A stretch of 64,000 nucleotides of DNA from assembly GCA_024867545.1 (NCBI GenBank), contig JANFNE010000013.1, positions 372,001-436,000 on the forward strand, read 5' to 3'. This document shows positions 27,601 through 58,065 of the stretch, piece by piece. The translations under genes and the position numbers were made by a program. The notes below the pieces were generated by a model. The model did no database searches, was not told where the DNA came from, and saw nothing but the letters and a program-made list of their open reading frames with translations. How positions within the stretch are numbered: the stretch's first letter is position 1; each line of letters starts with the position of its first letter. This DNA comes from Phytopythium helicoides. Lineage: Eukaryota > Oomycota > Peronosporomycetes > Pythiales > Pythiaceae.

Positions 27601-28989
27601 CTTGTGCGTGCGCAGGTCAAGACGCCAGCCAACGACGGATCGGTGACTCCTACAACGACTGAGAGGAGTCGGGCGTGAACTCTTTCCTAGCCCACGCGGT
27701 TGACCGCTTTATCGATGCGTATGCGGCGTTCCTGTCGCTCAAGATTGTGAAGCTCATTGTGCTGCTCATTTTCCTTGCCTGGACGCTTGTGTCGATCTAC
27801 TCCATCGAGTTTATGCAGCGTGGTCTCCCTCAAGCACAAGCCATGCCGTCAAACTCGTACATGATCGACTTTTTCAATGCTATCGACAAGTACCTTGCGA
27901 CAGGTGCGCCTGTGTACTTCGTGGTTGAGGCTGGCTATGGCAACAATCCTGAGAAATGGGAAGTCGACGATGAGAGCGTGTACTCCATCTTCTGTAAGTC
28001 CAAGAACGTGTGTGGCGAATACGCACTGCCCAAGCTCATCAATGGTCTCGCCAACGACGTCGATACCTCGATTTCACATGTGAGTCGCGGCACGACGTAC
28101 TCTTGGATGGACGACTTCTGGGGATTCGTCAACCCCGACAGCGACTGCTGCCGCGTTGACAACAACGGTGCCTACCTCCCACTTGACGACTCCAACACGA
28201 CCTACACGGATCTTCGAAACTCCGAGTACCCGACGTGCTTGTCGGCTTCGACGACCGTGCCGCCTGTCCCGGAGGACATGTACATGTCGCTCTTCAGCAT
28301 GTTCGCGACGGCCAGTGCCGGTAACCTGTGCTCGTACGGTGGTGGCTCCATCTACCGTGGTCAGTTCAGCGTCGACGATGAGCCGATTCCGATTGTGAAT
28401 GATTCTACTCCTGCGGTTGTCCTCAACAGTACTGGCTACGGAAGCGAGATCACGGCGTGGTCGTACATGGTGACGTGCACAGCCAACCCGACGCAGCAGC
28501 ACTACATCGACGCCTACGCTCAGCATCTTCGTGCTGCTGAGTGGATGGCCGAGAAGACGGGTGTGGACATCTGGGTGTACTCGCTGACGTACGTGTACTT
28601 CAACCAGTACTTGACGATCCGCAGTGATTCGTTTGAGCTGGTCGGTCTGGCACTGATCACGATTCTGGTGGTGACGGCTCTGTTCCTGGGCAACATCTTC
28701 TACGCGCTGGTGATCGCACTTGCTGCGGCGAACGTCGTGGTTCAAGTCGCAGGTCTGCTCTACCCCAACGATATTATGCTCAACGGTCTGTCGATGGTGA
28801 ACCTCGTGATTGCAGCCGGTATCTCGGTCGAGTTCTGCGGTCATTACACTCGAATGTTCGCCAAGGCTCGCGGCACGGGAGACGAGCGTGCGAAGGAGGC
28901 TCTCCGCCGCGTCCTCGTGTCCGTCTTCTTCGGCATCACCATTACCAAGGTGCTCGGTCTCAGTATGCTGACGCTGGCTGACTCGCGCG
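24636..28989 (+). pseudogene. NPC1-like sterol transporter, 3'-truncated paralogue
   Basis: Closely similar to the intact neighbour at 31117-35775. It has the Cys-rich N-terminal domain (NLTMCKYSKVEECIQDP, PGLCTACKVNLRNIFC), lumenal and sterol-sensing regions (SYCVMLVYISLGINRWKL, VVPFLTLAIGVDNIFLLV), and the second transmembrane half. The frame changes several times. Two extra bases are clear against the paralogue: a G near 24848 and a C near 26440. Other shifts lie near 24830 and 27665. Similarity to the paralogue stops at 28989, just after SMLTLADSR. The last membrane helices are absent and replaced in frame by Fanzor-derived sequence. It may still be transcribed; if the single-base shifts are sequence errors, it would encode a truncated NPC1 with a foreign tail. 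Confidence 0.8.
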
Positions 28990-29560
28990 AGCTGCTGGAA
29001 ACGTACACACGATATGTTATTCCACGTATGGAAAACCTGCTAGGATTTTCACGGGCGAAGGGATTCCGCAACCTGCGTTTTGGTCGGTACATCTTTGCGC
29101 AGAAGAAGCTACATGAACTCTGCCGGAGACTGACCCAGCAAGCAGGCAGGCGAACGGTGGTTGGATTTGGAGATTGGAGCAATACCGATTACTCTGGACT
29201 CATCAAGAAGTGCCCCGCGGGGCCGGTCAAGAGACTCGAGCACACATTGAGAAACTACTGTCATGTACAACCAATTGATGAGTTTCGCACCAGCAAGCTT
29301 CACCCACGTTGCCACCGGCAGCTAGAGTCTCCGCCTTTGCAAGGTCAAGAACAGCAAGGACAAGGAATGGCGGACGTGCAAGGTTTATAGTGTGCTCCAT
29401 TGTCGATCCAATGGCTGTTTTGGTACTACTGTGAACCGCGACGTCAACGCCTCGAAGAACATGCTGATGCTTCTCCTCAACATGCTCCATGGTCAACCAA
29501 GACCTAACGTTTTTGCCGAGCGCCAACTTAAAACATCAGGGGCCACAAAGTGTCTGCAGG
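28990..29560 (+). pseudogene. Fanzor (eukaryotic TnpB-like) nuclease relic, C-terminal part
   Basis: Directly abutting the NPC1-like sequence. The readable protein holds the C-terminal half of a Fanzor. First comes VVGFGDWSNTDYSG, then a cpaGPVKR-type segment (KCPAGPVKRLEHTLRN), then IDEFRTSKLHPRC, which carries the relocated RuvC glutamate and a damaged first zinc-finger cysteine pair. After a frame change near 29330 come VYSVLHCRSNGC and TVNRDVNASKNML (RuvC-III Asp), then GQPRPNVF as in Fanzor C-termini. The RuvC-I region and the N-terminal half are missing. Its sequence differs from the intact Fanzor at 37410-39539, so it belongs to another subfamily. Confidence 0.8.
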
Positions 29561-31116
29561 TGCGCTCAGCGTTGCCCGCAGATAGCACTGTATACTCAGG
29601 CATTGTTGCATTTTCACTGGGTTCCATTCCCAGTCATCGTCTTTTATCGTAAGATGCCGCGCTTACCACGGCCATACCCGCGAGCCGAAGGCGAGTGCTA
29701 GCAATTGATTCACACTTGGTTTTCAAGGTTCAAAATCCTGTTGTCTGTTCTTGTGTACATAACTACTCCTTACTCAACAGTTTGTTGCAGTGGTTTCAAC
29801 CACTTGCAGTCGAGATGCAGGTAGTTGTTGTCGGGCCCCACCGAATTATCGATGTGCGTTTGCAGTTGAGGGCGAACAGCACTGCGACGCAGCAATTTCG
29901 TTCGCGTAAAGTTCAGACCTTCTTGCGGTCGTTTGTCAACGCCTGCACCCCCTGGCGCTGTCCTGCTGGTCGCTCCCCATCACCAGCTCCAGTCGCCTCC
30001 GTCGACTCGCGAAATGGACGCCACACGAACGACTGGCCAGGATTCGATATGTTCGCGTACCGTAGGGTACCCGTGACTCGACTTGAAGTGATCCGCGTCA
30101 TGTGATGCGCAGCTCCATCGCGACTCATCAAGATCCGCGGCAGCTGGCCCGCGCCACTCTCGCTTTCAGTATGGTGCGCTCGTCCCGCCTACGCGCCTTG
30201 ACCGGGCGTTTGTATCGCCCGCTGCTTCAGGCAGACGCAGCGACATGGACGCTCCGAGTGTATCCTGGCGCGTCTTCGTTGAGCGTCTGCGGCGCGGATA
30301 CCGTCCCACTGTCGGTCAGCCCCGGAGCGAGTCCCGCGTGCCCAATTGCACCGAGCGGCGAGTCCCTCGTGGCGGCGTGGTGGAGAATGGAGGCCACCTC
30401 GTCGCCTTCATGGCGTGCATCATCATGTTCATCGGTGTTGATGACGCCTCGAGCGGGTTGCTCTCGTGTATTTCTTTCTTCTTGATCACGCGAGTGGAGA
30501 ATGGAGGAGCAGGCTGGCAGCCTGCATGGCACCCTGAATCCTTGCAGGAACCCTCGGTGAGGTCCATCGCTGCACGTTCCAGGCCGTCAACTTTCGCGCG
30601 GGTAATCGGTGCTTGCCGCACGTCGGCATGTCGCTAGGCTTGCGTGGTTAATCGCTTGGTGCCGGACGTGCGGCACCGAGGGATTAAGCTATACAAAGGC
30701 CCCATATGCCAAGGCTCGCACAAGAGCGCCCGCTCAATTAACTTGCTTGAGCTGCTCTGACCTGCTAGATCTGCTTGATCTGCTCGAGCCTGCCCATGCA
30801 GACAGCGAGCGACTCGCTGCTGGCCAGTCGAGCGCAGAGGCGCAGCTTCAGCCCCGTGACACTGCGGCTTTGGCGCTGCAACTGCTCCCGCAGACCAATC
30901 ACCAGCCCGGCGACTGCTCGCTTGAGCCCCGCGCCCATCCCCCCCAGACGTCTCGAGGAGCTCTGTAGCAACTTAATCCGCGCCGACCAGCTGTTTTTCG
31001 CCTTAGTAAAGTTGCGCCAAGCGCTTCCCAACAGTAAAATGGAACACCAAGCCACCTCGCCAAGCCGGTGACTCGGCACTTTGCCTTTGGCGCCGCCGCC
31101 CCCACGAGACAGGCGC
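29561..31116. other. Intergenic between the NPC1 paralogues, no secure gene
   Basis: A 104-residue plus-strand stretch starting MVRSSRLRALTGRLYRPLLQ (from about 30171) could be a first exon with a mitochondrial-type presequence but has no recognised domain. The word GTGGAGAATGGAG occurs twice (about 30388 and 30495). The missing 3' end of the first NPC1 copy is not found here. Confidence 0.4.
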
Positions 31117-34100
31117 ATGTGGGTCTTCGCCGCCGTCTGCGCCGCCATCTGCACGCCCTGCGTGCGTGAGGCGCTCGAGCGCGCGTTCGCCGAGCTCTCG
31201 GTCGTCTTCGTCAACTGGCTGCCGCTCGTCGCGGCCGCCGTGGCCGCCGTCTTCGTGCTGGCGCTGGCGCTGGCGCTGCGTAAGCCCTCGGGCTCTTCCT
31301 CTTCTTCCTGCTCCTCCTCTCCAAGCGCGACTACCGTGGCCATGGCCAAGCGCGCGACCTCGCAGGCTCACAAGGCGTGGAACGCGTGCATGCTCGCGGC
31401 CATGGTGCTCCCCGTGGGCGTGTCGGTGGCTGCCAGCGGATCCAGCAGCGGCACCGTCTCGAACGTGCCCTGGTCGCTCTCCAGCAACGCCACGCTGCTC
31501 GCAGAGCTCGAGGACAACCTCACCATGTGCAAGTACTCCAAGGTCAAGGAGTGCATCCAAGACCCCATGACGATCGAGGCACTCGGCACGGCATACCGCT
31601 CGCCAGGATACTGCCTCGCGCTCGACTCGGCGTACGTCAACGTCACGTCCTCGGCCTACGCCATCCCCAACCGGTACAACCCGACCTCGGTCGCAGATGC
31701 CTACACGCAGGGCTTCAGCAACAAGTTCTCCGAGTGGTCCGCCGAGAACCAGGAGCAGTTCCAGGTCGACTGCCCCATCTTCTACAACGAATCCATCGCT
31801 CAGGGTGTCGACCTGCTCTGCTGCACAGAGTCCCAGTACGAGGGTCTCTCGACTCAGGTGCGCATGATCCCCGGACTCTGCTCGTCCTGCAAGGAGAACC
31901 TGCGCAACATTTTCTGCCAGTTCACGTGCAACCCCAACAACAGTATGTTCCTTGAGGTCGACGAGGTGCGCATCATGCCTGGTGACGACGACCACCCGGA
32001 CGATGTGTTCCCCGCTATTGAGGAGCTCACGTACTATGTTAGCAACGACTGGATCCGCGACATCTACGACTTCTGCGAGGACGACAGCTCCTTCTCGTTG
32101 CTCTGTAACCCGAACCAGGACTGCACGGACGGCTACGGTCTGATGGAGTTCATGGGCGCGTACAAGTTTAACACGGTTGGCTCGCCCCTCCAGATCAACG
32201 TGACGACGATGGACAAGTTCACGGAGGCTGAGCAAGAAGAGATGTTCTGTCACTGTGATGGAAACATCACGAACTGTATTTCTCCTATGGACTCCCGGCT
32301 TGAATCCTGCGCGGGTGTGTGCGGTTCTCTCTGTTCTGTCAGCGTGGGTGATACCCGTACATACACGGAGTCGTGCTTCGGTGCGGTGACTGAGGCTGCG
32401 AGTGGCTCTGATGCCTCAGGATCGGTTGGTGGATCAATATGGGACGAATTGAACGACTTCCTGGCCTCGAACCTGACGGAGTCGGACTTCACGCCCTTGA
32501 ACTACTTCCTGGTGATCTTTGGTGTCGTCGTCGCGGTCCTTCTCATCGCTGGCTTCGCCTTCGCCATGCTGCGCCAGAAGAAGTACAACTCGGTGGAGCA
32601 GCGCTCCGCAAACGAGCCTGTGGGGCCGTACACGCCGGTGGCAACTCCTGCTGTCGTCACCGCACCGTCTGCTAACCGCCTGAGTTTCTTGGATGACCTC
32701 ATGACTCGTGAGATGAAGCGTTGGGCGGTGTTAATCTCGTCGGGCAAGGGACCCAAGTTCACGATCCCGATCGTGCTTGTTATCGTGATTGCCTGCTCGG
32801 TTGGACTGTACCGCACTGAAGTCGAGACGGACCCAGTGAAGCTGTGGGTCTCTACGTCAAGTTTGACGTACCGCCAGAAGGAGCACTACGGCCAGCTCTT
32901 CATGCCATTCTACCGCGCAGAGCAGGTGCTCTTGGTCCCCAAGGACGGTGGTGACATTTACCGCTCCAACATTATCAAGGAGGCGATTCGCATCCAGACG
33001 GACATGGCAAATGTTGTTTACACGGGCGAAGATGGCACCAATGTGACCCTGGATGACATTTGCTGGAAGGCGACGGGCACTGACTGCACGGTCAACTCTA
33101 TTACACAGTACTTCCAGAACAACATGGAGCACTTCGAGACGTACGAGCGCTACGGTCTCGCGCTGGAGCACTTCAGTAACTGTCTGTACTCGCCCACTAC
33201 GTCCGACGTCGACATCTGCAGCACACTGTCGAACGCCCTGCAGGATAACGACAGCATTCCGTCTACCATGTCGGACTGCCCGTGCCTGTCTGCATTTGGC
33301 TCGCCGATGAACTTGTACAACACATACCTCGGTGGTTTCCCGGATGGTGCAGAGACCAACTACACGCTGTTCCTTCAGTCCAAGGCTTTCGTGTCCTCAA
33401 CGCTGGTGTATAACTACGAAGATAAGGCTGACAACCAGCCCGCGATCAACTGGGAGCGCGAGCTGCTTGACCTTCTCAAGGAAGAGGCTGCGACGAATGA
33501 GTTGTTTGATATCTACTTCCAGGCTGAGACTTCTGTCCAGGATGAGGTTGACCGCGAATCTCACAATGGTATGGGTCCGGTTGCGTTGAGCTACTGTGTG
33601 ATGCTCATCTACATCTCGCTCGGTATCAACCGCTGGAAGCTGAGCAAGGACTTCTTCCTCACCTCGAAGATCCTTGTGGGTTTCTTTGGTGTGATCTGCA
33701 TCATCTTCGCTGTCGCATCGACCATTGGTCTCTACATGTGGGCTGGCGTCAAGCTGCAGCTCATTATCATGGAGGTCGTTCCGTTCCTGACACTTGCGAT
33801 TGGTGTCGACAACATCTTCTTGCTGGTGCATGCGGTTGCGCGCAAGGAGGCGGAGCTGCGGAAGTCGCAGCCTCAGCTGTTCGTGGGTCTTCATCAAGAT
33901 GAGGCTGCGGTGGCTGAGGTGACGAGTACGATCGTGTCGGAGGCTGTGTCGTACATTGGACCCAGTATCTTCATGGCGTCGACAGCTGAGTCGATTGCGT
34001 TCGTGTACGGCTGCATCTCGTCGATGCCTGTCGTCCTGTGGTTTGCTGCGATGGCGTGCTGCGCCGTTGCATTCAACTTTTGCCTTCAGATGACCCTGCT

Positions 34101-35775
34101 GCTATCGATCATCACGCTCGACAAGCGTCGTGAGCTGAGTGGCAAGTACGACATCATTTTCCGCCGCCCTGCGTCTTCCAAGAGCGCGGAGCATGCCATG
34201 GTGGCTGGTGAGACTCCTGCTACTGAGCGCGTGGGCCAGCCGCTTGTTGCTGGTGAGCCGAAGACCCCTGAGGGAATTGTCGAGACAAAGACCGCGAACG
34301 ATGCTGTGGAGCGCTTCTTCGACCGCTTTGTGGATGCGTACGCGTCGTTCCTGTCGCTCAAGATTGTGAAGCTCATTGTGCTGCTCATTTTCCTCGCCTG
34401 GACGCTCGTGTCGGTCTACTCGATTGAGTTCATCAAGCGTGGTCTTCCTCAGGCCGAGGCGATGCCTTCTGACTCGTACATGATCGACTACTTCAATGCT
34501 ATCGACAAGTACCTCGCGACAGGTGCGCCTGTGTACTTCGTGGTTGAGGCTGGCTACGGCAACAACCCGGACAAGTGGGAGGTGAACGACGAAAGTGTTG
34601 AGTCGATCTTCTGCAAGTCGAAGGATATTTGTGGGGAATATGCGCTTCCCAAGATTGTGGACGCGCTTGCGAACGATGTCGACAAGACTGTGTCGCACGT
34701 AAGCCCGGGCACAACGTACTCTTGGATGGACGACTTCTGGGGATTCGTCAACCCCGACAGCGAGTGCTGCCGCGTTGACAACAACGGTGCTTATCTTCCG
34801 ATCAAGACGGGCAATGAGACGTACTCGGACCAGCGATCGAAGTACTCGACGTGCCTGTCGGCTTCGACGACCGTGCCGCCTGTCCCGGAGGACATGTACA
34901 TGTCGCTCTTCAGCATGTTCGCGACGGCCAGTGCCGGTAACCTGTGCTCGTACGGCGGTGGCTCCATCTACCGTGGTCAGTTCAGCATTGACGACGAGCC
35001 TGTGCCTATTGTGACGGACACGACTCCTGCGGTTGTCCTCAACAGCACTGGCTACGGAAACGAGATCACGGCGTGGTCGTACATGGTGACGTGCACGGCC
35101 AACCCGACGCAGCAGCACTACATCGACGCCTACGCTCAGCACCTGCGCGCTGCTGAGTGGATGACGGAGAAGACGGGTGTGGACATCTGGGTGTACTCGC
35201 TGACGTACGTGTACTTCAACCAGTACTTGACGATCCGCAGTGATTCGTTTGAGCTGATTGGCCTAGCGCTCGCGACGATCTTCGTTGTGACGGCTCTGTT
35301 CCTGGGCAACATCTTCTACGCGCTGGTAATCGCGCTCGCAGCTACAAATGTCGTTGTCCAGGTTGCTGGTCTGATGCACCCGAACGACATCCTGATCAAC
35401 GGTCTGTCGATGGTGAACCTCGTGATTGCGGCTGGTATTGCTTGTGAATTCTGCGGCCACTACGTGCGCATGTTCGCCAAGGCTCGCGGCACGGGAGACG
35501 AGCGCGCGAAGGAGGCTCTTCGCCGCGTTCTCGTGTCCGTCTTCTTCGGCATCACCATCACCAAGGTGCTCGGTCTCAGCATGCTGACACTTGCCGACTC
35601 GCGCGTGTTCAAGAAGTACTACTTCCGCATGTACATGTTCGTGGTGATGTGCGGCTTCCTGAACGGCATGGTGCTGCTGCCTGTGGTGCTGAGCACGATC
35701 ATGGACGTGAAGGCGTTCTTCCAGCGCAAGCCGAGCGAGAAGACCGAGGCTGCAGAGGCCACGCATCGCGAGTAA
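31117..35775 (+). CDS. NPC1: NPC1-like intracellular sterol transporter
   Basis: One uninterrupted, intronless frame of 1552 residues from the ATG at 31117. A second candidate ATG at 31342 (MAKRATSQAHKAWNACMLAA) would place a signal peptide directly before the mature protein and give 1477 residues. Order: N-terminal Cys-rich sterol-binding domain (MCKYSKVKECIQDP, PGLCSSCKENLRNIFC, QFTCNPNNS), a first helix (YFLVIFGVVVAVLLIAGFAF), a lumenal domain, the sterol-sensing domain (MEVVPFLTLAIGVDNIFLLV), a second lumenal domain with paired cysteines, and the final five-helix bundle (FGITITKVLGLSMLTLADSR, FVVMCGFLNGMVLLPVVLS). It moves sterols out of late endosomes. Oomycetes that import host sterols may depend on it, which is inference. 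Confidence 0.95.
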   Translation: MWVFAAVCAAICTPCVREALERAFAELSVVFVNWLPLVAAAVAAVFVLALALALRKPSGSSSSSCSSSPSATTVAMAKRATSQAHKAWNACMLAAMVLPVGVSVAASGSSSGTVSNVPWSLSSNATLLAELEDNLTMCKYSKVKECIQDPMTIEALGTAYRSPGYCLALDSAYVNVTSSAYAIPNRYNPTSVADAYTQGFSNKFSEWSAENQEQFQVDCPIFYNESIAQGVDLLCCTESQYEGLSTQVRMIPGLCSSCKENLRNIFCQFTCNPNNSMFLEVDEVRIMPGDDDHPDDVFPAIEELTYYVSNDWIRDIYDFCEDDSSFSLLCNPNQDCTDGYGLMEFMGAYKFNTVGSPLQINVTTMDKFTEAEQEEMFCHCDGNITNCISPMDSRLESCAGVCGSLCSVSVGDTRTYTESCFGAVTEAASGSDASGSVGGSIWDELNDFLASNLTESDFTPLNYFLVIFGVVVAVLLIAGFAFAMLRQKKYNSVEQRSANEPVGPYTPVATPAVVTAPSANRLSFLDDLMTREMKRWAVLISSGKGPKFTIPIVLVIVIACSVGLYRTEVETDPVKLWVSTSSLTYRQKEHYGQLFMPFYRAEQVLLVPKDGGDIYRSNIIKEAIRIQTDMANVVYTGEDGTNVTLDDICWKATGTDCTVNSITQYFQNNMEHFETYERYGLALEHFSNCLYSPTTSDVDICSTLSNALQDNDSIPSTMSDCPCLSAFGSPMNLYNTYLGGFPDGAETNYTLFLQSKAFVSSTLVYNYEDKADNQPAINWERELLDLLKEEAATNELFDIYFQAETSVQDEVDRESHNGMGPVALSYCVMLIYISLGINRWKLSKDFFLTSKILVGFFGVICIIFAVASTIGLYMWAGVKLQLIIMEVVPFLTLAIGVDNIFLLVHAVARKEAELRKSQPQLFVGLHQDEAAVAEVTSTIVSEAVSYIGPSIFMASTAESIAFVYGCISSMPVVLWFAAMACCAVAFNFCLQMTLLLSIITLDKRRELSGKYDIIFRRPASSKSAEHAMVAGETPATERVGQPLVAGEPKTPEGIVETKTANDAVERFFDRFVDAYASFLSLKIVKLIVLLIFLAWTLVSVYSIEFIKRGLPQAEAMPSDSYMIDYFNAIDKYLATGAPVYFVVEAGYGNNPDKWEVNDESVESIFCKSKDICGEYALPKIVDALANDVDKTVSHVSPGTTYSWMDDFWGFVNPDSECCRVDNNGAYLPIKTGNETYSDQRSKYSTCLSASTTVPPVPEDMYMSLFSMFATASAGNLCSYGGGSIYRGQFSIDDEPVPIVTDTTPAVVLNSTGYGNEITAWSYMVTCTANPTQQHYIDAYAQHLRAAEWMTEKTGVDIWVYSLTYVYFNQYLTIRSDSFELIGLALATIFVVTALFLGNIFYALVIALAATNVVVQVAGLMHPNDILINGLSMVNLVIAAGIACEFCGHYVRMFAKARGTGDERAKEALRRVLVSVFFGITITKVLGLSMLTLADSRVFKKYYFRMYMFVVMCGFLNGMVLLPVVLSTIMDVKAFFQRKPSEKTEAAEATHRE

Positions 35776-35904: not shown

Positions 35905-37263
35905 CTACAGCGCGATGGTCTCAACTTCTGGGAACTCGGCCGCGCGCGTCATGAAGCTGTCAGCGAGGAACGCAGCAGAGAGCTGACCGACTGCTTGCAG
36001 CGCATAGTACGGGTCGATAGCCCCTGCAGCCTTCATCCACCGGTTCACGCGAGGCGAGAAGAGCGGGATGTCGGAGAAGTTGTTGTGGCGCGAGCCTCGT
36101 AGCACCACGAGGCGCGATTCGGCGTGCGTGCAGCCTTGTGCGTGGCGCTTGGTGCTGACGAAGTTGTCGTGCCAGCGCCAGAAATGCTCCGAGAGCATGT
36201 GCAGCACAGGTGCTCGCGAGCCGAGGCCGTCGCGAGTGGTGTCGTTGAGGGGCTCCATCCACGCGTCCAGCAGTACGACGCGGCCAATGCGGTCGTCTTC
36301 ATGAGCAGCACTGAGAGCCGTCGCAGCGCCGAACGAGTGGCCGACAGCACTGACGTTGCGAGCGTCCACGCGGCTCAAGACGTCGTCGACCGTGACGTTG
36401 GCGTCGCCGGCGGACTTGTGCTTGGTGCTGTTGACCCTTTCAAGCGCGTCCGAGAGCATCGCCCGCAGCTCCCGCACGCGCTGGAGCAGCTGGGCGTTGC
36501 GGAACCGGAAGCCCGCGCCGTCAATGTTCTCGCGCACCTCTCTCGAGATCTGGTGGTAGTACTCGACGCGGTCGGGCTCGGGCCGGGCGACGCTGGCGGA
36601 TCCATCGCAGTGGTTGAGCACGACCACGACGCTGCCGCTGCTCGCGAGCTGCTGGTTGACGTGCGAGTACATCTCTAGTGAGCCACCGAGTCCGTGGCTG
36701 AAGATGACGAGCGGCCATCCGGCGTCGCTCTCGGGCTCGAGCACGGGCGCTCTCTCCACGGCTGCGAGCTGTCCGTTGCGCATGTTGCCGAAGACCCACG
36801 CGGGCATCCTGGTGAAGACGCTGAGCCCGCGCAGCACGTGCTCGCCGTGGTGCAAGTAGCTCGCGGCCCGGCTGGAGGTCGGCACCGACGGGTAGAAGAC
36901 GCGGCACTCGACGTCTCCGAGCCGCGCCGAGACGCAGCCGAGCGCCTCGAAGCGCCCGTGCAGCTCCGAGAAGTCGGGCCACGGGAACAGCAGCGACGCC
37001 GCCCAGGCGAGCGCCACGCCCGCCACCGCCGCCCACCAGAACGCGCCGCGCCAGTCCGCAGCCGCGAGCGAGAGCGCCAAGGCGGACAGCGAGGCGTAGA
37101 GCGGCGCCATCTGCCGCCGCCAGCGGTGCGCGGCCAGCAGCGCGGCCACCGGCAGCGCCAGCGCCAGCGTCGCGGGGGCGAGAGCGGGGAGCGCGCGGTC
37201 AGCAGCCAGTAGCGCCGAGGCCGCGGCCAGCAGCAGCTGCTCGAGGCGCTGGAGGCGGCGCAT
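35905..37263 (-). CDS. Platelet-activating-factor acetylhydrolase-like alpha/beta hydrolase with membrane anchor
   Basis: A 452-residue intronless frame. The N-terminal 95 residues are hydrophobic with about four short membrane segments (ALAPATLALALPVAALLAAH, ALSALALSLAAADW). The hydrolase follows: oxyanion strand WPLVIFSHGLGGS, nucleophile elbow VSAVGHSFGAAT (Ser), acid VVLLDAWMEPL (Asp), and histidine in VLRGSRHNNFSDIP. These match the PAF-AH/LpPLA2 family, which cleaves short or oxidised sn-2 acyl chains of phospholipids. It faces the NPC1-like gene tail to tail (129 bp). Its start lies 146 bp from the 3' end of the Fanzor gene, which therefore sits in its promoter side. Confidence 0.88.
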   Translation of the reverse strand: MRRLQRLEQLLLAAASALLAADRALPALAPATLALALPVAALLAAHRWRRQMAPLYASLSALALSLAAADWRGAFWWAAVAGVALAWAASLLFPWPDFSELHGRFEALGCVSARLGDVECRVFYPSVPTSSRAASYLHHGEHVLRGLSVFTRMPAWVFGNMRNGQLAAVERAPVLEPESDAGWPLVIFSHGLGGSLEMYSHVNQQLASSGSVVVVLNHCDGSASVARPEPDRVEYYHQISREVRENIDGAGFRFRNAQLLQRVRELRAMLSDALERVNSTKHKSAGDANVTVDDVLSRVDARNVSAVGHSFGAATALSAAHEDDRIGRVVLLDAWMEPLNDTTRDGLGSRAPVLHMLSEHFWRWHDNFVSTKRHAQGCTHAESRLVVLRGSRHNNFSDIPLFSPRVNRWMKAAGAIDPYYALQAVGQLSAAFLADSFMTRAAEFPEVETIAL

Positions 37264-37409
37264 GGCGCGACGAGATGTGCGGCCGAGGAGCTACGAGCAA
37301 GTGCGTGGCGTTGACGTCGACGGATTGTAGTATCCCTGGACTACATACAGACTCAAACTACTGTGTACGCTTAACTCCCTCGCGCACGTCGCGATGTCGC
37401 CGCTGGTGT
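37264..37409 (-). other. Fanzor 3' flank: candidate guide-RNA (omega RNA) scaffold region
   Basis: In TnpB and Fanzor loci the guide RNA is usually encoded at or overlapping the 3' end of the nuclease gene and reads into the element boundary. This 146-bp flank is the corresponding place and also the PAF-AH promoter. An ACTACTGTGTACG word at 37357-37369 may mark the element end. No RNA structure is demonstrated. Confidence 0.3.
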
Positions 37410-39828
37410 TCACGCATGCGTTGCTGCTGTTCCTCGACAGAAAGCTGCTGGTCGTGGATCTCCACGCAGCTTGGCCCTGAGCAGAGTCAGCATGTTGAGC
37501 GCCGCATTGACATCACGATCCCAAAAGAGCGCCCTGCAATCGCTGGCGTGACAGCGCAGGACATTCTTGGTGGTGATCAGCTCCGTCTCGCCGTCGCGAA
37601 ACTGCGGCAGCACTGCATTGCGAAGTGGCTGGTGGCAACTGGAGCACAGTTTGCTCGAGCAAAACTCGTCGATTGTTACCACCCTTGCTCGCTTCTGCAG
37701 CGCATGCCGAAACCCTTTTACTGGTGTGGGGCTGTGGCCGTGGATCCCATCGCGAACACTCCAGTCGCCATACCCGACGATAACCTGTGGGTTTGCAACA
37801 GGAACGACGCGCTTGGCCATTGCGTCCAGGGTCTTGGCCTTCATCCGCTTGACCATGAACCGCTGCTTTCGGAAAGCATGGCTGGCGCAGAACTCGACCA
37901 GGTACGCGACGCTCGCCCAGTAGATGCGAAGGTGCTCCAAGTAGACGTCAAAGTCGGAGCACTTGAACGACGGGAGCCTAGTCAGCACATCGCTGTACTG
38001 ATGGTCGCGCTTTTTTAGATTCTCAAACCAGAACTGCTGCTTCTTCATGCCTGCAAGGTGGCGATACTCACGCGTATGAATCTGCGTGATGTTACTGTGT
38101 GGTTGAACCGCACCCTTGATAGTTGGTAAGACCTCGCCCTCTCGTGCAGCAGTGCACAAGTTGCGCATCCCAGGATCAACTCCGATCAGCATATCAGGCG
38201 CGTAGTTGCTTGGCAGTGATTCCCACTCGTAGTCGACCTCGGCTTCCGCCGCCAGCTTCCGTCGCTTCTTGCCTTTTCTGCGCTCCTTCTTCAGCTCCTC
38301 GATCTTCAGGTCGTGAGTCGACTTTGGACGAGTCAGCAACACAGAGGCAGAGTATCCGTCCGACGTTATCTGGTGAGCAAATAGTCGGCTTGCAATCGGC
38401 GCCTTACTGTCGTGGTCCATGGCGTTAAATTCCGCCTTTGAAATGCCTGCGTCGACTTTCATCGTCTCAAACTTGCTCACAGAGAATAGCTGTCGGAGTA
38501 TGGCTCCTTTCTGCTGAATGGTAACGGAACTACTGAGTGCCCCAGTTCTCGCGCCTTTAGGCATCAGTAGTGTGTTTCGACCGCCGGTCGACTCGAACAC
38601 CCTGGCGCTGAATCCGTGTAGCGTTGTTCTGTTGATGATAATGTGGCTCGGAACGTAACTCGCCGAACATGGCAGCAGAGAGAATGATCGAATGCCTTTT
38701 TTGTTTGGATCCCGGCGCTGCGAGGCTTCGACCTTTTGGAGGATGACGTACAACCTCTTGACGAAGTGCTCTAGATTTCTCTCGATAACAGACTGGTGCG
38801 GCTCGAGCCCGAGCCATCCACGAAGCTCCTGCTCATCCGCTGTGAACTCGCTGTCGCTCGATCGGTAGCACGCAGTCACAAGACGGTTGATCTCACCTCG
38901 GGCGACAGCTGGCTGCTCATCGTTCTGGTGGGGACGAGGTGTCGTGGTCGAGCGCTCTCTGTGGTGTGGCGCATCTTCCATCGCCATCAAAGCAGTCTCA
39001 AGAGCTGGCCTGTCCTCCATCGCCATCAAACGCAACTCTTCTTGGCGCTCTTCGAGCAACAGTCGAGCGTACATCGTCAGTCGCTTCTCGAAGTTCAACA
39101 CGATCATGTTCCTGGTGTTGATCCGCATCTGCTCCGCAAGCCATACCAGCTGTTTGTGGTCGTGTGAAGCTGTAGCTGCCGGCGTGTAGCCCTCAACACG
39201 CACTCGCTCGGCACGGTACAGTCTGGCCGTCTCTCGAAAATCGTTGGTCGCTGAGCTGGTTGCACCGAGTCCCTGAGCTCGAACGGCGTGACAGCACCAG
39301 GAAAAAAACGTCTGATCAAGACGCGGCAGTTCACCTTGAGATTGCAGGCAACGGAGCACGTGCATATTCGCTAGGTGCCACGCCTCCGATGTGATCTGCT
39401 TGAACACGACGCAGGATCGCTGAATCTCGTCTATGAGGTCGGGGTCTTCACACAACTGCTGGAGCCTGCACGTGACGCTCGTGAACGAGTGGTGCTTGTC
39501 CCAGTCCTTTTCCTCGTCGGTCTTCTTGCGCTTGGGCATGACCAGCGATCTCCAACCACCAAGGTCGGAAGAGAGTGAGCTCGCTGAGGTGCTGGATGCG
39601 GCAAAAGCGACTTCGCGAATGAGAGGCAGAGAACGAGGTCGTCGCGAAGAAGCCGTTGGAGCGAAGGTGCGCAATGAGAACGTAACTGTCAGACTGCAGA
39701 GCCATAATGACTCATGGGTGCTATGCCGAGATTGTGACGTAGTTGCTGACATGTGCCTTTGCTGGCATGGTGAAGGTTGAATTGTCTCGTCAAAGTCAAA
39801 CCGCAATGACGTACACACTTCAGTAGTG
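37357..39828. mobile_element. Possible Fanzor-carrying element with short inverted ends
   Basis: ACTACTGTGTACG at 37357-37369 is matched, inverted and with a 5-nt gap, by ACTACTGAAGTGTGTACG read on the minus strand at 39828-39811. The two ends enclose the Fanzor gene with 40 nt on one side and 289 nt on the other. The match is short and no target-site duplication was confirmed. Confidence 0.25.
37410..39539 (-). CDS. Fanzor RNA-guided nuclease (eukaryotic TnpB homologue)
   Basis: The ATG at 39539 gives 709 residues beginning with an SV40-like nuclear signal, MPKRKKTDEEKDW. The frame is open 93 codons further upstream, but that part is not protein-like. A second basic cluster (RRKGKKRRK) precedes the nuclease core. 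RuvC-I is in MLIGVDPGMRNL (Asp near residue 455). GYGDWS (about 589) stands where TnpB has RuvC-II. The relocated catalytic Glu is in TIDEFCSSKLCSSC (about 625). The zinc finger pairs CSSC with CHASDC. RuvC-III is in FWDRDVNAALNML (Asp near 676). The single uninterrupted frame and complete catalytic set indicate a functional or recently active gene. The family cuts DNA guided by a 3'-encoded RNA; activity here is inferred. Confidence 0.9.
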   Translation of the reverse strand: MPKRKKTDEEKDWDKHHSFTSVTCRLQQLCEDPDLIDEIQRSCVVFKQITSEAWHLANMHVLRCLQSQGELPRLDQTFFSWCCHAVRAQGLGATSSATNDFRETARLYRAERVRVEGYTPAATASHDHKQLVWLAEQMRINTRNMIVLNFEKRLTMYARLLLEERQEELRLMAMEDRPALETALMAMEDAPHHRERSTTTPRPHQNDEQPAVARGEINRLVTACYRSSDSEFTADEQELRGWLGLEPHQSVIERNLEHFVKRLYVILQKVEASQRRDPNKKGIRSFSLLPCSASYVPSHIIINRTTLHGFSARVFESTGGRNTLLMPKGARTGALSSSVTIQQKGAILRQLFSVSKFETMKVDAGISKAEFNAMDHDSKAPIASRLFAHQITSDGYSASVLLTRPKSTHDLKIEELKKERRKGKKRRKLAAEAEVDYEWESLPSNYAPDMLIGVDPGMRNLCTAAREGEVLPTIKGAVQPHSNITQIHTREYRHLAGMKKQQFWFENLKKRDHQYSDVLTRLPSFKCSDFDVYLEHLRIYWASVAYLVEFCASHAFRKQRFMVKRMKAKTLDAMAKRVVPVANPQVIVGYGDWSVRDGIHGHSPTPVKGFRHALQKRARVVTIDEFCSSKLCSSCHQPLRNAVLPQFRDGETELITTKNVLRCHASDCRALFWDRDVNAALNMLTLLRAKLRGDPRPAAFCRGTAATHA

Positions 39829-40167
39829 ATCCTTGTTGATGTGCTTGCGCATTGCGATACGAAAAACGGTTGCCACTACTGCAACTCCATGAACAAGGAG
39901 TATGCAGTGCGAACACAGCGGTATTCCATGAACTCGTGGCGGTAGAGGGTTATGATGTCTGTATGTCGGAAGCCATTGACAGGACTTCAATCATCGCTAT
40001 GAGATGCAAATGCAGTTCCTACACTGACCAATTGCAGATCAACATGAGTTTTGCAGATTTGACCAGACGAGTCCGCCGTTGCAGATCGATCGATCACCGA
40101 GTGCAACTGGTTGAAGCGGTGCACAGTCGAGCTTCTAGCAGTGCATCAATCCTCATAACTTTGCTGG

Positions 40168-40491
40168 TCACAGAGCCTCGCGGCCGTGGGGAGCGCCGTA
40201 GTCAACGTATGGACCCGTGAGGACGGCGTCGTCGGCCTCGTCCTTGTGGTTCATGACGCCGATGCGCAAGTGGCCCCAGTTGACCGTCTTGCGGAATGCT
40301 GGCATCTGGTACAGCTCGCGCATATACTGTTCTCATTCATCAAGATGAGCACACAAATCCACGGGCAAGCATATACATACAAATAGTGTCAACGTACGGA
40401 TTGTCTCGGAGGCACTGTGCGACGCGCATGTACTCGCCACGGAGATGGGGAGCTGCGCAGCCTATGGAGCGGAGCGCGGTGACGCACTTTT
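40168..40491 (-). pseudogene. Glutathionyl-hydroquinone reductase (ECM4/YqjG-like) C-terminal fragment
   Basis: Translation of the minus strand gives RVAQCLRDNPYVDT, then, after a probable intron around 40395-40325 (GTATGT...GAACAG), YMRELYQMPAFRKTVNWGHL and a tail TGPYVDYGAPHGREAL followed by a stop at 40170-40168. The order LYQ-P-TVN--H...GP...PHGRE is typical of the C-terminus of omega-like glutathione transferases that reduce glutathionyl-hydroquinones. The frame across the predicted intron is off by one base. The catalytic N-terminal thioredoxin fold is missing: upstream sequence belongs to the secreted repeat gene. Probably a remnant. Confidence 0.55.
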
Positions 40492-40608
40492 GAGGCGAGC
40501 TAGACGTTGATCATGGTGGCACCAAGCAAACAACACGAGTGAACAATGCCAGGGATATCGATTTGGTTTTCACGCGGGGACGAACGAGTGCAACATGACG
40601 AGCGAGTT

Positions 40609-42320
40609 CTACGACTGCGACTGGGTGGAGGGCGGGGATCGATCGAGAGCGTCGTCTGCGCGCAGACGCCGGTCTCGACGCACCGGGAAGCCGGAGCCGA
40701 ACGTGTCGACGAGGTCGTCTGGGCTTGGCGACGATGGCGCAGGCGTTGAAGTCGGCTCTGCAGTCGATGGTGTTGGGGTTGTTGGTGTCGGTGTTGTTGC
40801 CGGCGTTGGTGTCGGTGTATGTGTAGTCGGCGGCGCTGATGTTGAAGGCGTTGGTGTTGGAGTAGGTGTTGGTGTTGGTGTTGGAGCAGGTGTCGGTGCT
40901 GGCGTTGATGTTGGTGCTGGCGTTGGAGCTGGTGTCGAAACTGGTGTTGGCGCTGGCGTTTGCGTCGATAGGGGCACTGTGGAAGGTACTGGCGTTGGAG
41001 TCGGCGTTGCTGAGTGTGATGCAGTAGGAGGTGCATTTGTAGTAGATGCTGGCGTTGGAGCTGGCTGGCTGTCAATCGGGTAGGGCTTGAGGGTCACAGG
41101 CATAGCGTCATCGCTACTATCGCAGTCTAGCTCGCCAAAATCGGAGACTGATGCTGGGGAATTTGTTGTAGTCAACTCAGCCGGAACGGGTGTCCATGGT
41201 CTTTCTGTCGCCACTACGAGATCATCTGGACAAGGCTCCTCCGTTGCCATCACTAGATCGTCCGGACAAGGCTCTTCCGTCGGCATTACGAGTCCATCAG
41301 GGCAAGGTTCCTCCGTTGCCATCACGAGTCCATCAGGACACGGTTCTTCTGTTGCCATCACTAGGTCATCAGGACACGGTTCTTCTGTTGCCATCACTAG
41401 GTCATCAGGACACGGTTCTTCTGTTGCCATCACTAGGCCATCGGGGCACGGTTCCTCTGTTGCTAGCACGAGATCGTCTGGGCAAGGCTCTTCTGTCGCA
41501 ATCTGTAAATCGATACACGGATCCTCTGTTGGCGGTGTCTCGACCCTCAATGGTAGCTCGATACATGGTTCCTCTGTGAAAGCATCGGTAGGTGCAGGCG
41601 TCGGTGAATCCGTCTTCATAGTGGACGTATGATCATGCGGAACTTCCATTGGTGAACCTGATGCTGTGGATGATGACGAATTTGTTGGTGAAGGAACTGG
41701 TGAATGCGCTGGCGAAGGCGTTGGTGTTGGTGTGGTGAATTTGCTGTTCCCGATGATGTTGGTGAATTTGTTGATGCTGTTCCCGAAGTTGTTGGGGAAT
41801 TGGTTGATAAAACTGTTGGCGAAGGTGTTACCGGAATTGCTGACGAATTGGTTGGTGGAGATGTTGGTGACGAAGTTGGAGTTTCGGTCTCATGTTTATC
41901 GTGGTCATCGCACGGAATATCCGCCGTCATTGGGCCAACCGTTGCCGACGATACGCTCACGTCTTCAAACCCAGCAAACATGTTGGACGGGCAGTCAGAC
42001 CTTGCAACACAGCCAAAGACTCCATTCGCATCCTTGATGCAAGAAGAACCGAACGGAAGCGATGGATACGGGCCGGGGCATACACCCTCGCGATCATTTC
42101 CACATGGCTCACCCTGGATGCAGAAGTTTTCACTCCCAACTTGAATCCATGAGTATTCCTTGGTGTCGAGGCAGTTGTCTGCGATGTTTACCGCGAACGG
42201 AACCCCGCACGGACCCAGGTTGCTTGCTCCTTCGACTCTCAATAACCGCAGAGTAGCTGTAGAAGATGCTGCTACACCAGGAGTGGCCACGAGCGCCACC
42301 AAGGCGCTGACGCGAATCAT
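40609..42320 (-). CDS. Secreted mucin-like protein with 12-residue repeats
   Basis: The ATG at 42320 opens a signal peptide (MIRVSALVALVATPGVAAS). A Cys-rich domain follows, about 130 residues, with CGVPFAVNIADNCLD, CIQGEPCGND and CVARSDCPSN. Then come Thr/Ser/Pro stretches, at least eight tandem copies of ATEEPCPDDLVM, and a long PTPTPTP tail. One single-base shift near 41735, inside the ACC/CCA-rich stretch, joins the two halves. It resembles oomycete cyst-coat mucins such as CAR-type acidic repeat proteins in style, not in repeat sequence. It is probably heavily O-glycosylated and attached to the cyst or wall surface. The C-terminal end is uncertain. Confidence 0.7.
41207..41494. repeat. 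Eight tandem 36-bp coding repeats
   Basis: Unit length is exactly 36 nt (12 codons on the minus strand). Units start at 41207, 41243, 41279, 41315, 41351, 41387, 41423 and 41459; a decayed ninth follows. The 41351 and 41387 units are identical, showing recent copy-number change. Confidence 0.9.
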
Positions 42321-52850: not shown

Positions 52851-55302
52851 TCAGTCATTGTCGAAGGGTACTGGATCAAGCGCCGCAGTCGTCTCAGCGA
52901 CCGTGTCTTCCGTCAAGAAAGAGGCGTACTCACTCAAACCAAAGCATGCGTCGTCGGATTTGGTACGGTAAGCAATGTCGGACTGAGCTACGGACAACGG
53001 ATCCCACCACCTCAACGCGGCGATCCGCCCCAGGAGGCCAGCCACTCTGGGTGAAATAAACTTCCACGAGTTTGCGCCTTCATCCTTCTTGAGGGCAATT
53101 CCTAGGAGGAATAACGCGAACGTGTCTCCGTCCGAATTAGTTGAGTCAATCATGCACCGCTGAGTCGTCTGACCTTCTTCTCCAGTTTCGTGTAAACTCA
53201 TACAAATACGAACTACGCGTTGCAATGGAAGTTTTGACAACGAGTTGCTCTCGCCGAACACACGATCAAAACATGTTGGAGCGTGCAGGTTGAAGAGAAA
53301 GCTTCAACTTGGATGAAGATGGCAGACGCTTGCTCTCCACAAAAGATTGGTATCACCAAGTCAACATTCGATTCACCCATGGGGAAGAACTGCAGCAGCG
53401 CGACGTCCGAGCAAGAGCCACAGCATCTCCTCGTTTGGCGGTGCTGTAAGCTCGATGAAGTGGCTGAAGCAGAACTTCCACTTGCTCCAGCTACTCATCC
53501 ATGAGTTGAATTGCTCGCACTGAAGAGAAGACACTTCCTTGCCTGTTGCATTCTCGAGGGGAGGGTCCTCACCAACAAGGCTTTTGAGGAGATGATTTAC
53601 TCGAGCAAACTTGTAGCTCAAATCCTCTCACAATGAAACTATTTTCTCTCATTGCGAACTGCTCGTCTATTGCCAGCAGCAAGAAAACTCGTCCAACAAT
53701 CTCTTCAATCTTCGCAACACCAATTAGACCCTGCATCACCAGCGTCTCGAAATGTGGCAGAAGCTGCTCCTCCAATGCATCCCTCGAATACCACGCCTCG
53801 ATTCCACCAAGAGCTAACACATGATCAGAGGGGTAACTGACGATCAGCTCATCTAAAGTTTGATTCACATGGTGGAGTGTCGCCATGCAATTCGCGACGA
53901 GAATCGATGCAGCTCGTCCGTACACGCGTAACCCAAGACGACACAATAGTACGCCGATACCGTGCATGGTATCTCCGCAATACGATCGTCTATCGAAAGC
54001 GTGAACCCCCATCAATAACTTCCGTGACGCAAAAGTGATCAAGCTTTGATCGTACACACTCGTGTACGTCCTGAACGTTTTCCAAAGTGGACGGGCCATC
54101 GACACTAGAGCTTTCGATCTTGCTTCGACAAATGTGGTCTGAACGCTCGCCTTGTAGGTGATTGAACCGCCAGTGGAGCTGGTCGAGAAAATGTCCATGG
54201 TTTCGGTGAGCACAAATGGCCGAAACGAAGCTCTAAGCTGGCGCTGGGTTGAAGAACCTTCTCGAAGAAAGATGCGAGGATTGGTATCGATAACGACTCC
54301 AAAGATGACGCTGCCTGGTTCGATCGCCCGGTTTGCTGCAACGAGCCCCTGGCGAAATATTTCGAGGCAATTACGACCGCATTCGCCTTTTTCCTCAAGC
54401 AGCGAGCGCGTCTCATCGACAACCACAATCAAAGCTTTTAGTCTGTTAGTACTCAGTCTTGTCCTCTTGCGAGAGGGTTCTTGACCTTTTGCACGAAGCA
54501 ATGCTTCCATGGTGTTGAGGTCAGTCGTACCATTATCTGTAAACATTCCGAGCCATTCCGAGCCAATTGACCACCAATGTTCTTGTGCGTACTTGAATGC
54601 TGCGGTGATCTGTTCTGCAGATCTGCTTGTGGTGGAGTTCTCGAGCAGCCAACTGCGCATTTGCGGCGTCGCAGCGGGATACCCCGACGAGTTCGGAATG
54701 GTGCGGGCACAAATGTACAAGACTCGCATATCGACCGGATTCATCGGTGGCGATCCGTTTGTAAATGTAGACATGCCTGTTGCCGTCGCCTTTGCCAGCT
54801 CGTACACCAAGCGGCTCTTGCCAAAACCTGAGGATTGCACGATAGCAATGCACGGTGCGCTAAACGCTTTTGGTTCGTTTCGGTAGGAGAAGCAGCACCG
54901 TGCCAAGTAGTTTCGAAACTCGACGTCTGCATCACCGATGTATGGAGCCTCAAATGCATCGATCACCATCTGTCGCCAAGGCGTGCCGTCTTCAGCCACT
55001 TCGGTGGGTGGTGGATTATATGCGAGTATTGCGCAGACTTCGGTTGCAATCGTCTTGGCAATGGCACAGATAATAGAGTCATCCGCACTGGGGTACACCA
55101 AGGAAACCGCGTTGACAAGAATCTCAGCCTCGATACGCTTTGCTGCCAGAACATTATCTTCGTCAATGGCCAGCTGTTTCTCCCCGATAGCTTGCACTTG
55201 TGCGCTTTGGTCGTCGGGTAGATTTTCGACAAGGCGCTCGTACACGGTCACCGACATTCGATTGATTAGCCCTGTCATCTTTGTGGACGGAGCCGCCTCC
55301 AT
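52851..55302 (-). CDS. P-loop NTPase of the crinkler-associated kind, copy A
   Basis: The ATG at 55302 opens a 577-residue stretch; homology continues in other frames to 52851, about 810 residues in all. Walker A is in IAIVQSSGFGKSRLVYELAK (residues about 155-175) and Walker B in ALIVVVDETRSLLE. Downstream, DTMHGIGVLLCRLGLR and HVLALGGIEAWYSRDALEE align with copy B. Frame changes near 53605 (T run), 53385 (G run) and about 53260 separate the C-terminal part. QSSGxGKSR-type NTPases occur as modules of crinkler and related transposon-derived effectors in oomycetes and fungi. Here there is no crinkler header and no signal peptide, so effector status is open. Confidence 0.65.
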
Positions 55303-55344
55303 CTCCGCTACGTGCTCAAACTAGCGAACTAACGGAGTGGTTAC

Positions 55345-55448
55345 GAAGGAACTGGGATAGGGACGCAAAATTCTCATCAAAGAACTTGCCGATGGCGAAG
55401 GAACTGGGATAGGGACGCAAAATTCTCATCAAAGAACTTGCCGATGGC
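55345..55448. repeat. Perfect tandem duplication of 52 bp in a bidirectional promoter
   Basis: 55345-55396 is repeated without change at 55397-55448. It lies between the divergent NTPase genes. The second copy contains the ATG of copy B. Confidence 0.95.
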
Positions 55449-58065
55449 GCTGCCAGAATCGGATACGCCCAAAACTCCACAAGTGCTGACCAAGTCCTCG
55501 CAAGAACTAAAGATGTCCACACCTTACCCAACAGGACCGAGCTTGATCAGGAGGCTATCAACTGTGCTGTTCACACACCTTGCAAAGAAGGCAAACGGGG
55601 AGGTCCGTGAAGCTCTAGAGAAGAAAGGAGTAATCGATCTGAAAGTCGACGAGGAAGTGCTGATACTCGATGGCCAAGGGTGTTGGAACTGGCTTCTGTG
55701 GGGATGCCTCGAAGCCTACGATGATGACCACTGGAGCTCATTTTCACTCGTTCGCTCTGCTATGGATGACGCCCTTCCGGAACTTCAGAGTATTCTTTCC
55801 GAAGCTGCTCAAAATCTGCCCCAAGACGAAGTTGTGAATCACCTCAAGACAGTTTTTGAGCAACCCTATATTGGAAATGCGCACCTGCAGCTCTCTGAGG
55901 TATTGGATAACTGCTGTCGGGCATATGCTCAAACCCACATAGCTGAACTGTTCAAACCGTACGTCTCTGTCATCCAAAGCTCGGGTTTTGGTAAGAGCCG
56001 ACTCATGTTTGAACTCGCCAAGCACGTGACAATCCGCAACGTGATTCCGGAAGAGTCCTGCTGGCGTATCTATCGACATGCGGATTTTGTATGTGTCTGC
56101 GCGGAGTATCCTCTCGCCTGGGCATCCTGCTGCAACTGGAAGCCTGAAGCGATGGCTGCTTTGTTCAGGATTGAGCATCGTGGACAAATTGGATATTATC
56201 TACAAGTACGCACAACAACACTGGGACTCCGTTGGAGAAGAGTGGCTTGGTCTGTTCTCGGGAGAGGAAAATAAAGTCCTGGAAAATCTCAAGAAGCCGC
56301 AAAAGAAGAACCGGAACCAAATGACGCCGAACCAAGGTCTCGAAAACACACACCGAACTCTTGTTTTGGCTATTGATGATTCACGATCACTTTTCGCGGT
56401 AGATGAGACCGGGGTTAGCTTGTTTCAGAAGCTCTGTAGTGCGGTAAAAACTGCCAACTATCATCTCCGCAGAAGAGGATACCTTGGTGGTGTCTTTGCA
56501 CTCTTTGTGGACTCTCATGTTCAGCTCGGCACGAATGCGCACATCTACAGTTATTCGAGGCACCCGTCCAACACCGATATCATTACCTTGCCTCCTTTCG
56601 TTTTGACTCAAGGGATGGACGCGATGTGCTCTGAAAAGACGAAATCTTTACTCATGCTTAAGGAGATGGTCTGTGATGGCGGCCCCGTCAAGTCATGGAA
56701 TAATCTAGTTCGCATGGGGAGACCGCTGTGGTCTAGCTTCTTCCAGTCTTTGATCAGTGAAGTCACAACTGACGAAGCCAAAGCGCGAGTGATTGGACTG
56801 GCTGCATCAAAGCTCCTGTTGGGGCGTGCGATTGATAAGGCCGACAGCTACAGTGGTGAGACGATGCATGGTGTCGCGGCACTCTTGTGTCGTATTGGGG
56901 TTCGATCACGAGCTCACTCTCCACTAGCACCACGACTGGTAGCAGACTTCATGGCAGTACTGCAATTTGTGAACCACACGCACGACGCGTACCTTTGCGG
57001 ATTCCCATCAGAGCCTGTTTTGGCGCTTGGAGCAGCTCGCGTATGGTATCAGCTCGACCCACCAGCAATCGAGCAGCACTTGCTGCCTGAGTTTGAAAGT
57101 TGGTCACTAGCGGGGTTTTGGACATTGGCAATCTCCATAACGTCGTTGTGAGGATATTCTTGTTGCTAGCTGTCGATGCAGCAAGTCTCAAGATCTCTGC
57201 AATCGGCGATGTTGCCTTTGCCGATTACATCCTTGACGGCACATTCTGCCCTGTGCATGCGTTCTTACAACTTCTTCTTGGGGCTCACGAGGTAATCGAC
57301 CAAGACATGGACGTAGTTGTCTCGCCGGTGAACGATCTCAATGCATACATGAGCGTCTGGGAGAACTGGAAACTGTCATACACTCAATTTGTAGAGCTAC
57401 GAGCTGCACCATCCGAGAAAACGCTGTGGTGGTTGTTGAGTCGCCGGACTGCAGGTATTGTGCGTCGAGGCCAAGAAGCGAATCACCTCTTGCTCCCCAT
57501 GTTTTGTGGCGATGCCGTATCTTTCGTTCTGGTTCGCGTTGTGAAGGAACTGTTGGGTCTTCCACCACAAAACTTTCTAAGTTCGACCCAGGAGATTTTT
57601 GACGGCGATCGTGCCCTTGTCAGTATGCTGCCGCGGCCTTTGATTCAAATTGTGATCACCGTTTACAACAGCTATCTCTGTGCGCCGACTCAATGCGTCG
57701 TGGTCGGCGAAAGTGAGTCCACTTCTCACGCTTTGATTCTTCGAGGAATTTGCGACCAAGCAGAGAGGACGAGCCACTGGTCGTTTCTGTCGGCGGCAGC
57801 GTCAAGTCTACTTTCATGTATTGCTAGAACCAGGTGGCGTAGTATGGTGAACCAAGCGAAGAGCGAGCTGCAGCCGCAAGCAGAAGATTTGCGGAGCGTT
57901 CTTTCGCTGGTTCCAAGTCACGCTAGACCTGCGCGTGCGCTTTTGCTAGGCGCAACCAGAAACAGTGTAGTGGTCGTGGAACGGGTTCTGCTAGCCTGGA
58001 TGGTTACGTGGGCTTGGGCACCAAGGCAGCGAAGTACGAATGTGCTATGGTTGGTTAATGAGTGA
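55444..58065 (+). CDS. P-loop NTPase of the crinkler-associated kind, copy B
   Basis: Divergent paralogue of copy A, starting MALPESDTPKTPQVL inside the tandem repeat. Order: helical N-terminal domain, Walker A in VSVIQSSGFGKSRLMFELAK, then after a frame change near 56070 DMRILYVSARSI and Walker B LVLAIDDSRSLF. Next come GETMHGVAALLCRIGVR and VLALGAARVWYQLDPPAIEQ. After a second change at the GGGGTTTTGG run (about 57112) come VVRIFLLLAVDAA and a C-terminal domain ending near 58065. It has about 870 residues in three overlapping frames. Function is unknown. Relatives are linked to crinkler effectors and mobile elements. The matched preservation of both copies suggests the frame changes may be sequence errors. 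Confidence 0.65.

Follow-up and report, generated by a model that had tools for sequence, protein, structure and literature searches.

An intact Fanzor1 gene on a short repeated element of the oomycete Phytopythium helicoides, with a candidate guide RNA at its 3' end

The locus described here raises the question of whether a long open frame in an oomycete genome encodes a Fanzor nuclease and whether the gene belongs to an element that may still act. The frame lies in a 64,000-nucleotide stretch of Phytopythium helicoides DNA (contig JANFNE010000013.1, positions 372,001 to 436,000), called the window below. An initial annotation, made from the letters of the DNA, had reported an uninterrupted 709-codon frame at 37410..39539; it was found there, on the minus strand, from the ATG at 39539 to the stop codon at 37412-37410. 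Fanzors are the eukaryotic relatives of CRISPR-like nucleases that cut DNA under the guidance of RNA. The locus is probably a Fanzor1 element, i.e., an RNA-guided RuvC nuclease gene on a short repeated element that has no recognised transposase. Purifying selection and a conserved RNA-like structure at the 3' end lend indirect support to the proposal that it may encode an active RNA-guided nuclease. An upstream in-frame ATG at 39752, with no stop between, would result in a protein of 780 aa. Since the related copy L003 has a stop codon immediately ahead of MPKRKK (open frame 713), the ATG at 39539 rather than that at 39752 is the likely start.

The window protein matched the Pfam family Cas12f1-like_TNB with an E-value of 1.4e-6. 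Among the PDB sequences, SpuFz1, the Fanzor1 of Spizellomyces punctatus, was matched with E-values of 8e-7 by single sequence and 2e-20 by profile. These matches, together with seven further genomic copies at 91-93% identity, exclude a chance resemblance. The structure model from 35 aligned sequences resulted in a predicted local distance difference test score (pLDDT) of 85.2; an earlier model from 8 aligned sequences, with a pLDDT of 44.7, was not used. Ranks 1-7 of the fold comparison were all Fanzor1 chains in Foldseek as well as in VIA-align, the latter run on 587 of the 590 chains ranked by Foldseek. The closest solved relative was not a Fanzor2, as Fanzor1 ranked first by a wide margin in the PDB searches, Foldseek and VIA-align. 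The NCBIfam TnpB models gave weak matches to the C-terminal part of the protein, far below their cut-offs.

The RuvC, zinc-finger and PKRKK motifs named in the initial annotation were all located in the protein. The first catalytic Asp is D455 in VDPGMRN, the displaced Glu, E625, lies with C632 and C635 within IDEFCSSKLCSSC, C663 and C668 are the further zinc residues, D676 stands in RDVNAALNML and PKRKK at the N-terminus. The RuvC D-E-D triad, with its Glu moved to just before the zinc ribbon, is thus present at the level of the sequence. Conservation was determined in the alignment of 35 sequences, window protein included, by counting non-gap rows. Asp was found in 33 of 34 rows at D455 and in 29 of 31 at D676, and Glu in 30 of 31 at E625. 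Cys occupied 31 of 31, 30 of 31 and 29 of 30 rows at C635, C663 and C668, respectively, and the column of C632 was mostly His (23 of 31). The DPG motif (D455-P456-G457), a trait of the Fanzor lineage (PMC10711439), is present. The TDG motif of the WED domain, named as a Fanzor feature in the same study (PMC10711439), occurs as an SDG variant (ITSDGY, 393-395); its first position was T in 31 of 33 rows, and at the second D stood in 27 rows and N in six. The encoding of a Fanzor1 is supported by the sequence searches, the motif conservation with the displaced Glu and the predicted fold. The identity claimed at the outset is backed by the same evidence: in the profile and PDB searches the best matches did not fall outside the TnpB/Fanzor clan.

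A search of the 49-Mb genome with the window protein gave at least 83 matches. Family A comprises eight copies (L001-L008, the window copy being L001) at 91-100% protein and 90-95% DNA identity, all eight without a stop; seven end at codon 709, and L008 lacks the last codons and continues into other sequence. Family B (L009, L010) is 63% and family C (L011-L013) 53-54% identical to the window protein, and L015 51%, all free of stops. L014, assigned to family C at 52%, carries one stop, and stops were also present in L016, L018, L019, L020 and L025 of other families. Together with the expanded family D described below, the genome offers open, selected copies in families A, B, C and L015 for asking what Fanzors do for the element or for the host.

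The family A copies lie in different surroundings and share a fixed 3' end. It was found in 7 of the 7 copies keeping it, 65 nt past the stop codon (...CTGTAT; window 37345), or 63 nt in L007. Past this point three copies diverge at once and four share 20 nt more. The 3' boundaries were set by several copies each in families A, C and D. The 5' boundary varies: it lies at about -200 to -211 in L004 and L006, which gives the shortest leader common to the copies, at about -267 in L003, L007 and L008, at -460 in L005, and at about -860 in L001 and L002; the L003/L008 pair shares more, 426 bp. L002 and the window copy have a 5' block in common that extends to about 858 bp before the ATG with 93.6% identity. 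The window copy carries host DNA on its 5' side, because glutathione S-transferase-like codons are found there (Pfam detected such domains in the query gene used for the match) and five family A copies lie amid such genes on contig C58. In the ORF lists, the Fanzor was the sole long sense frame between the shared ends; no transposase profile was run.

These data bear on the possibility, which we consider unlikely, that the gene is a domesticated host gene, no longer mobile, with copies made by segmental duplication and gene conversion. In its favour, partner or ghost loci with family A ends were absent among the genome matches to both end queries: of the eight matches to the 3' end, seven came from family A and one, at 77%, from the family B copy L010, and the nine to the 5' end were the eight family A copies plus a 61-bp piece on C59. 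The five copies clustered among glutathione-transferase genes and the loss of the 3' end in L008, which reads on into other sequence, point the same way. Furthermore, the 5' flanks pair L001 with L002 and L003 with L008, in conflict with the protein tree, where L002 groups with L003, L005 and L006 at 99/98 and L001 with L008 at only 83/78. This disagreement of coding-sequence and flank kinship suggests gene conversion among family A copies. However, seven copies share one endpoint, four of them ending alike 20 nt later, with differing 3' flanks, in which only paralogous glutathione-transferase stretches recur, at other offsets. Duplication alone is insufficient, because it would not result in one fixed 3' end.

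The clustered copies, L002-L006, occupy about 35 kb (G000:C58:202173-240076). An ATG opening an ankyrin-repeat frame starts 19 nt past the 3' end of L002.

The Fanzor gene is kept under purifying selection, as judged from its codon changes. The ratio of nonsynonymous to synonymous change (dN/dS) was 0.127-0.259 in all 28 family A pairs, 0.232 in the one pair of family B and 0.133-0.147 in three pairs of family C, L014 left out. Over 684 codons, the window copy alone showed 11 synonymous and 9 nonsynonymous single-base codon changes, the neutral expectation from site counts being about 37 nonsynonymous. From these private changes, constraint persisted after the separation of the window copy. 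The copy could still be a Fanzor1 relic with a preserved frame, no longer expressed or active. This is improbable: the stops in the six other-family copies listed above fit such decay, against which stand the eight stop-free family A copies, their pairwise dN/dS of 0.13-0.26 and the constraint seen in the private changes of the window copy itself. In L008 (G000:C47:402002-407056), with 13 synonymous and 12 nonsynonymous private changes, the last codons and the guide-RNA end are lost and about 210 further in-frame codons follow. The label of a sucrase/ferredoxin-like protein, considered for this tail, was dropped as Pfam gave no match.

The 3' end of the element carries a conserved, RNA-like structure. 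Synonymous change drops in the last 79 codons, read as the overlap with a guide RNA; in 7 of the 8 family A copies the permutation p was 0.0002, and 3 of 631 contiguous windows, itself included, were as low. In six family A copies the noncoding end differs by 5.0% over its 65 nt and by 2.2% in a 40-nt core. The stem-loop within it is preserved with changed letters, GUGGC/GCCAC in family B, GUGCGUG/CACGCAC in family C and GUGG/CCAC in L015, and in a hand count three pairs were altered on both sides between families. We read the guide RNA scaffold as ending at 37345 and the flank from 37344 downward as the predicted guide. In the mechanism proposed for the Fanzor1 element, which is or was presumably mobile, the transcript of its 3' end would fold, as far as 37345, into the guide RNA scaffold, and the adjoining 14-20 nt or so of flanking DNA, from 37344 downward, would serve as guide. 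The loaded nuclease would then cut matching sites, chiefly a paralogous site or the unoccupied allele, and the occupied copy would act as the repair template, by which the element would be restored or spread. For the window copy, the predicted guide is open to a direct test.

Several results weigh against this account. Terminal inverted repeats were not found in family A: between the candidate ends of L001 or L003 there was no significant inverted match, at least 33 of 200 shuffles being equally good, with the left ends themselves uncertain. One 9-nt exact inverted match in L007, equalled by 8 of 200 shuffles, was not terminal. The synonymous drop was less marked in family C (four copies, L014 included), with p-values of 0.009 for the last 27 and 0.079 for the last 79 codons, and in family D it was not clear, with synonymous change (pS) of 0.005 in codons 601-630 and 0.107 in codons 631-660. 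The covariation of the stem depends on four families and hand counting. Compared with shuffles, single-sequence folds of the tails had no clear gain in stability (z from -1.47 to +0.64), and neither had the fold of the 216-nt end (z -0.43); at the gathering threshold no Rfam match was obtained in window 36900-40500. No empty target was recognised in a genome search with the 18-mer past the 3' end at up to two mismatches, the only empty-site search made; it resulted in eight matches, three being the copies themselves, compared with five for the reversed control. Apart from these points, target duplication was not recognised for family A. Inverted repeats right after the 3' end, seen by eye in several copies, were rejected as their mean stem score, 11.5 in 13 copies, did not significantly exceed the 10.3 at 2443 control positions (p 0.07).

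The 20 nt following the 3' end deserve separate treatment. Between 13 and 19 positions were identical in all six pairs of L001, L002, L003 and L007, while over the next 20 nt agreement was at the chance level (21 pairs, mean 5.5 of 20). Random pairs of flanks attain 13 shared positions with P 0.0005. The sharing was not seen in L004, L005 and L006, nor in families C and D, and the stretch is more variable than the scaffold preceding it. As far as the flanks tell, it would be either the true terminus of the element, which three copies have lost, or a target matched by the guide of a homing nuclease. That the stretch is guide and target at once, and that the four copies arrived by RNA-guided homing into one and the same target, seems rather unlikely. 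The identity ending at position 20 and the variability relative to the adjoining scaffold argue for it; against it, three of the seven copies lack the 20 nt, the sharing does not extend to families C and D, and no other genomic site beyond chance was met in the 18-mer search. Published native guides, moreover, are mostly shorter: that of SpuFz1 has 14 nt (PMC10432273), and for Fanzor1 structures heteroduplexes of 9-15 bp and guides of at most 20 nt are given (PMC11423790), which places 20 nt near the top of the range. Yet more doubtful is the further idea that the 20 nt are a fossil guide, the Fanzor1 having homed repeatedly into one target of about 20 nt without a transposase of its own, by break repair that sometimes copied upstream host DNA such as the glutathione-transferase tail. 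Comparison of strains would make homing by a eukaryotic Fanzor testable at this shared flank.

A Fanzor2, a TnpB or a bacterial contaminant in place of a Fanzor1 can hardly be supported, as the weak NCBIfam TnpB matches and the archaeal label of the family D relative P0021 are opposed by the rankings given above, by flanking genes of the NPC1 and platelet-activating factor (PAF) acetylhydrolase types (Pfam) and by nearest named relatives from oomycetes. On the grounds of these neighbours and relatives the host is eukaryotic. Among the matches listed, the nearest named relatives were from Nothophytophthora and Globisporangium for the window protein and from Phytophthora, Globisporangium and Nothophytophthora for family D, in agreement with the oomycete host first proposed; the searches scored the 7,984-7,990 candidates with most shared words, so that the relatives are a lower bound. 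The PAF acetylhydrolase-type gene is the next on the strand of the Fanzor, its frame beginning at 37263.

Fanzor1 in oomycetes is already known, and the window gene is a well-preserved new example, not a new kind of system. A survey, reportedly by Bao and Jurka, lists Fanzor families of Pythium, Phytophthora and Albugo. Such families were published in 2013 (PMC3627910), with counts, in the column taken as Fanzor1, of 6 in P. ultimum, 4 in P. sojae, 2 in P. capsici, 1 in P. ramorum and 2 in Albugo laibachii (PMC3627910). Compared by description, they are of the same protein class and from the same kind of host as the window gene. PUl-1 and PUl-4 are mariner-type with TA duplications, one having a transposase (PMC3627910); in family A, again compared by description, neither TA duplication nor transposase was seen. 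In build, family A resembles MCi-2 of Mucor circinelloides, in which the 3' part holding the Fanzor gene is constant, the 5' regions differ between copies and, as in family A, terminal inverted repeats are not recognisable (PMC3627910). The 3' regions of MCi-2 show 99% identity, and two subfamilies have 11-12-bp duplications (PMC3627910), compared with 90-95% DNA identity and no recognised duplication in family A. SpuFz1 (PDB 8gkh, 9ceu-9cez) is 15-18% identical to the window protein. Its elements have inverted repeats of about 30 nt and gene-less 'ghost' loci (PMC10432273), neither of which was found in family A. A Phytophthora cactorum Fanzor was modelled in 2023 (PMC10711439). Among the titles and abstracts listed on Fanzor and on TnpB in oomycetes, no description was recognised as this element.

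Family D forms a Fanzor1 group of its own, with a protein of 659 aa; over 674 aligned positions, its identity to the window protein is 25%. In the protein tree it sits elsewhere than families A, B, C and L015 and is recently expanded. At least 40 copies exist: the best 40 of 132 DNA candidates all matched, 39 besides the query at 96-98%. Of 30 fetched (L032-L061), with L047, L053 and L059 left out, 22 of 27 frames were full length. The element is about 2.63 kb. Both ends were read in 21 copies, of which two had altered 3' ends. Among the remaining 19, compared by eye, the short flanks of the two ends agreed in 16 (AAT 12, AAAT 3, AAC 1) and disagreed in 3. A 3-4-bp target duplication is suggested, because the four copies departing from AAT agree at both ends. 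The 5' end was matched in inverted orientation by a site lying about 28 nt inward of the 3' end, a match that 5 of 200 shuffles equalled. The 648-aa protein P0021, labelled a transposase of a Thermoplasmata archaeon metagenome-assembled genome, is 47% identical to family D. The window holds a 723-bp family D piece at 28983-29705 (+), 5'-truncated, with an intact 3' end and 95% identity. The piece is in frame (open reading frame 27813-29390) with the end of an NPC1-like frame, whose Pfam matches are all sub-threshold. Further on, at 31117-35775, lies an NPC1-type gene whose frame is open over 1552 aa.

Table 1. Features of the Fanzor1 locus and its flanks, in window coordinates.
Feature	Position	Strand	Basis
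Predicted guide, 20 nt past the 3' end of the element	37325..37344	-	flank comparison with L002, L003, L007
Conserved noncoding element end, 65 nt, likely 3' part of omega RNA scaffold	37345..37409	-	copy comparison
Another short hairpin, ACAG / CUGU, ahead of the 3' end of the element	37347..37364	-	minimum-energy fold of window tail
Stem-loop GUGCGC / GCGUAC, loop similar in other families	37365..37387	-	pairing preserved across families
Fanzor1 coding sequence, 709 codons + stop	37410..39539	-	ORF, Pfam, PDB, motif, alignment and fold evidence
Last 79 codons, reduced synonymous change, read as guide-RNA overlap	37413..37649	-	pS 0.062 vs 0.172 elsewhere
5' leader; longer form of about 267 nt beginning TTGCGGTTTGACTTTG	39540..39806	-	copy comparison
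5' flank common to window copy and L002	39807..40397	-	copy comparison
Glutathione S-transferase-like C-terminal piece, 53 aa	40171..40329	-	tblastn 49% identity, E 4e-12

Two further regions of the window were noted. At 53569-57151, three overlapping or adjacent frames lie on both strands, two with a P-loop-like SGFGKSR motif; they gave no Pfam match at threshold and presumably resemble the ATPase part of Crinkler-type proteins. In the frame at 40609-41649, a TEEPCPDDLVMA-like unit is repeated and a long stretch is rich in proline and threonine.
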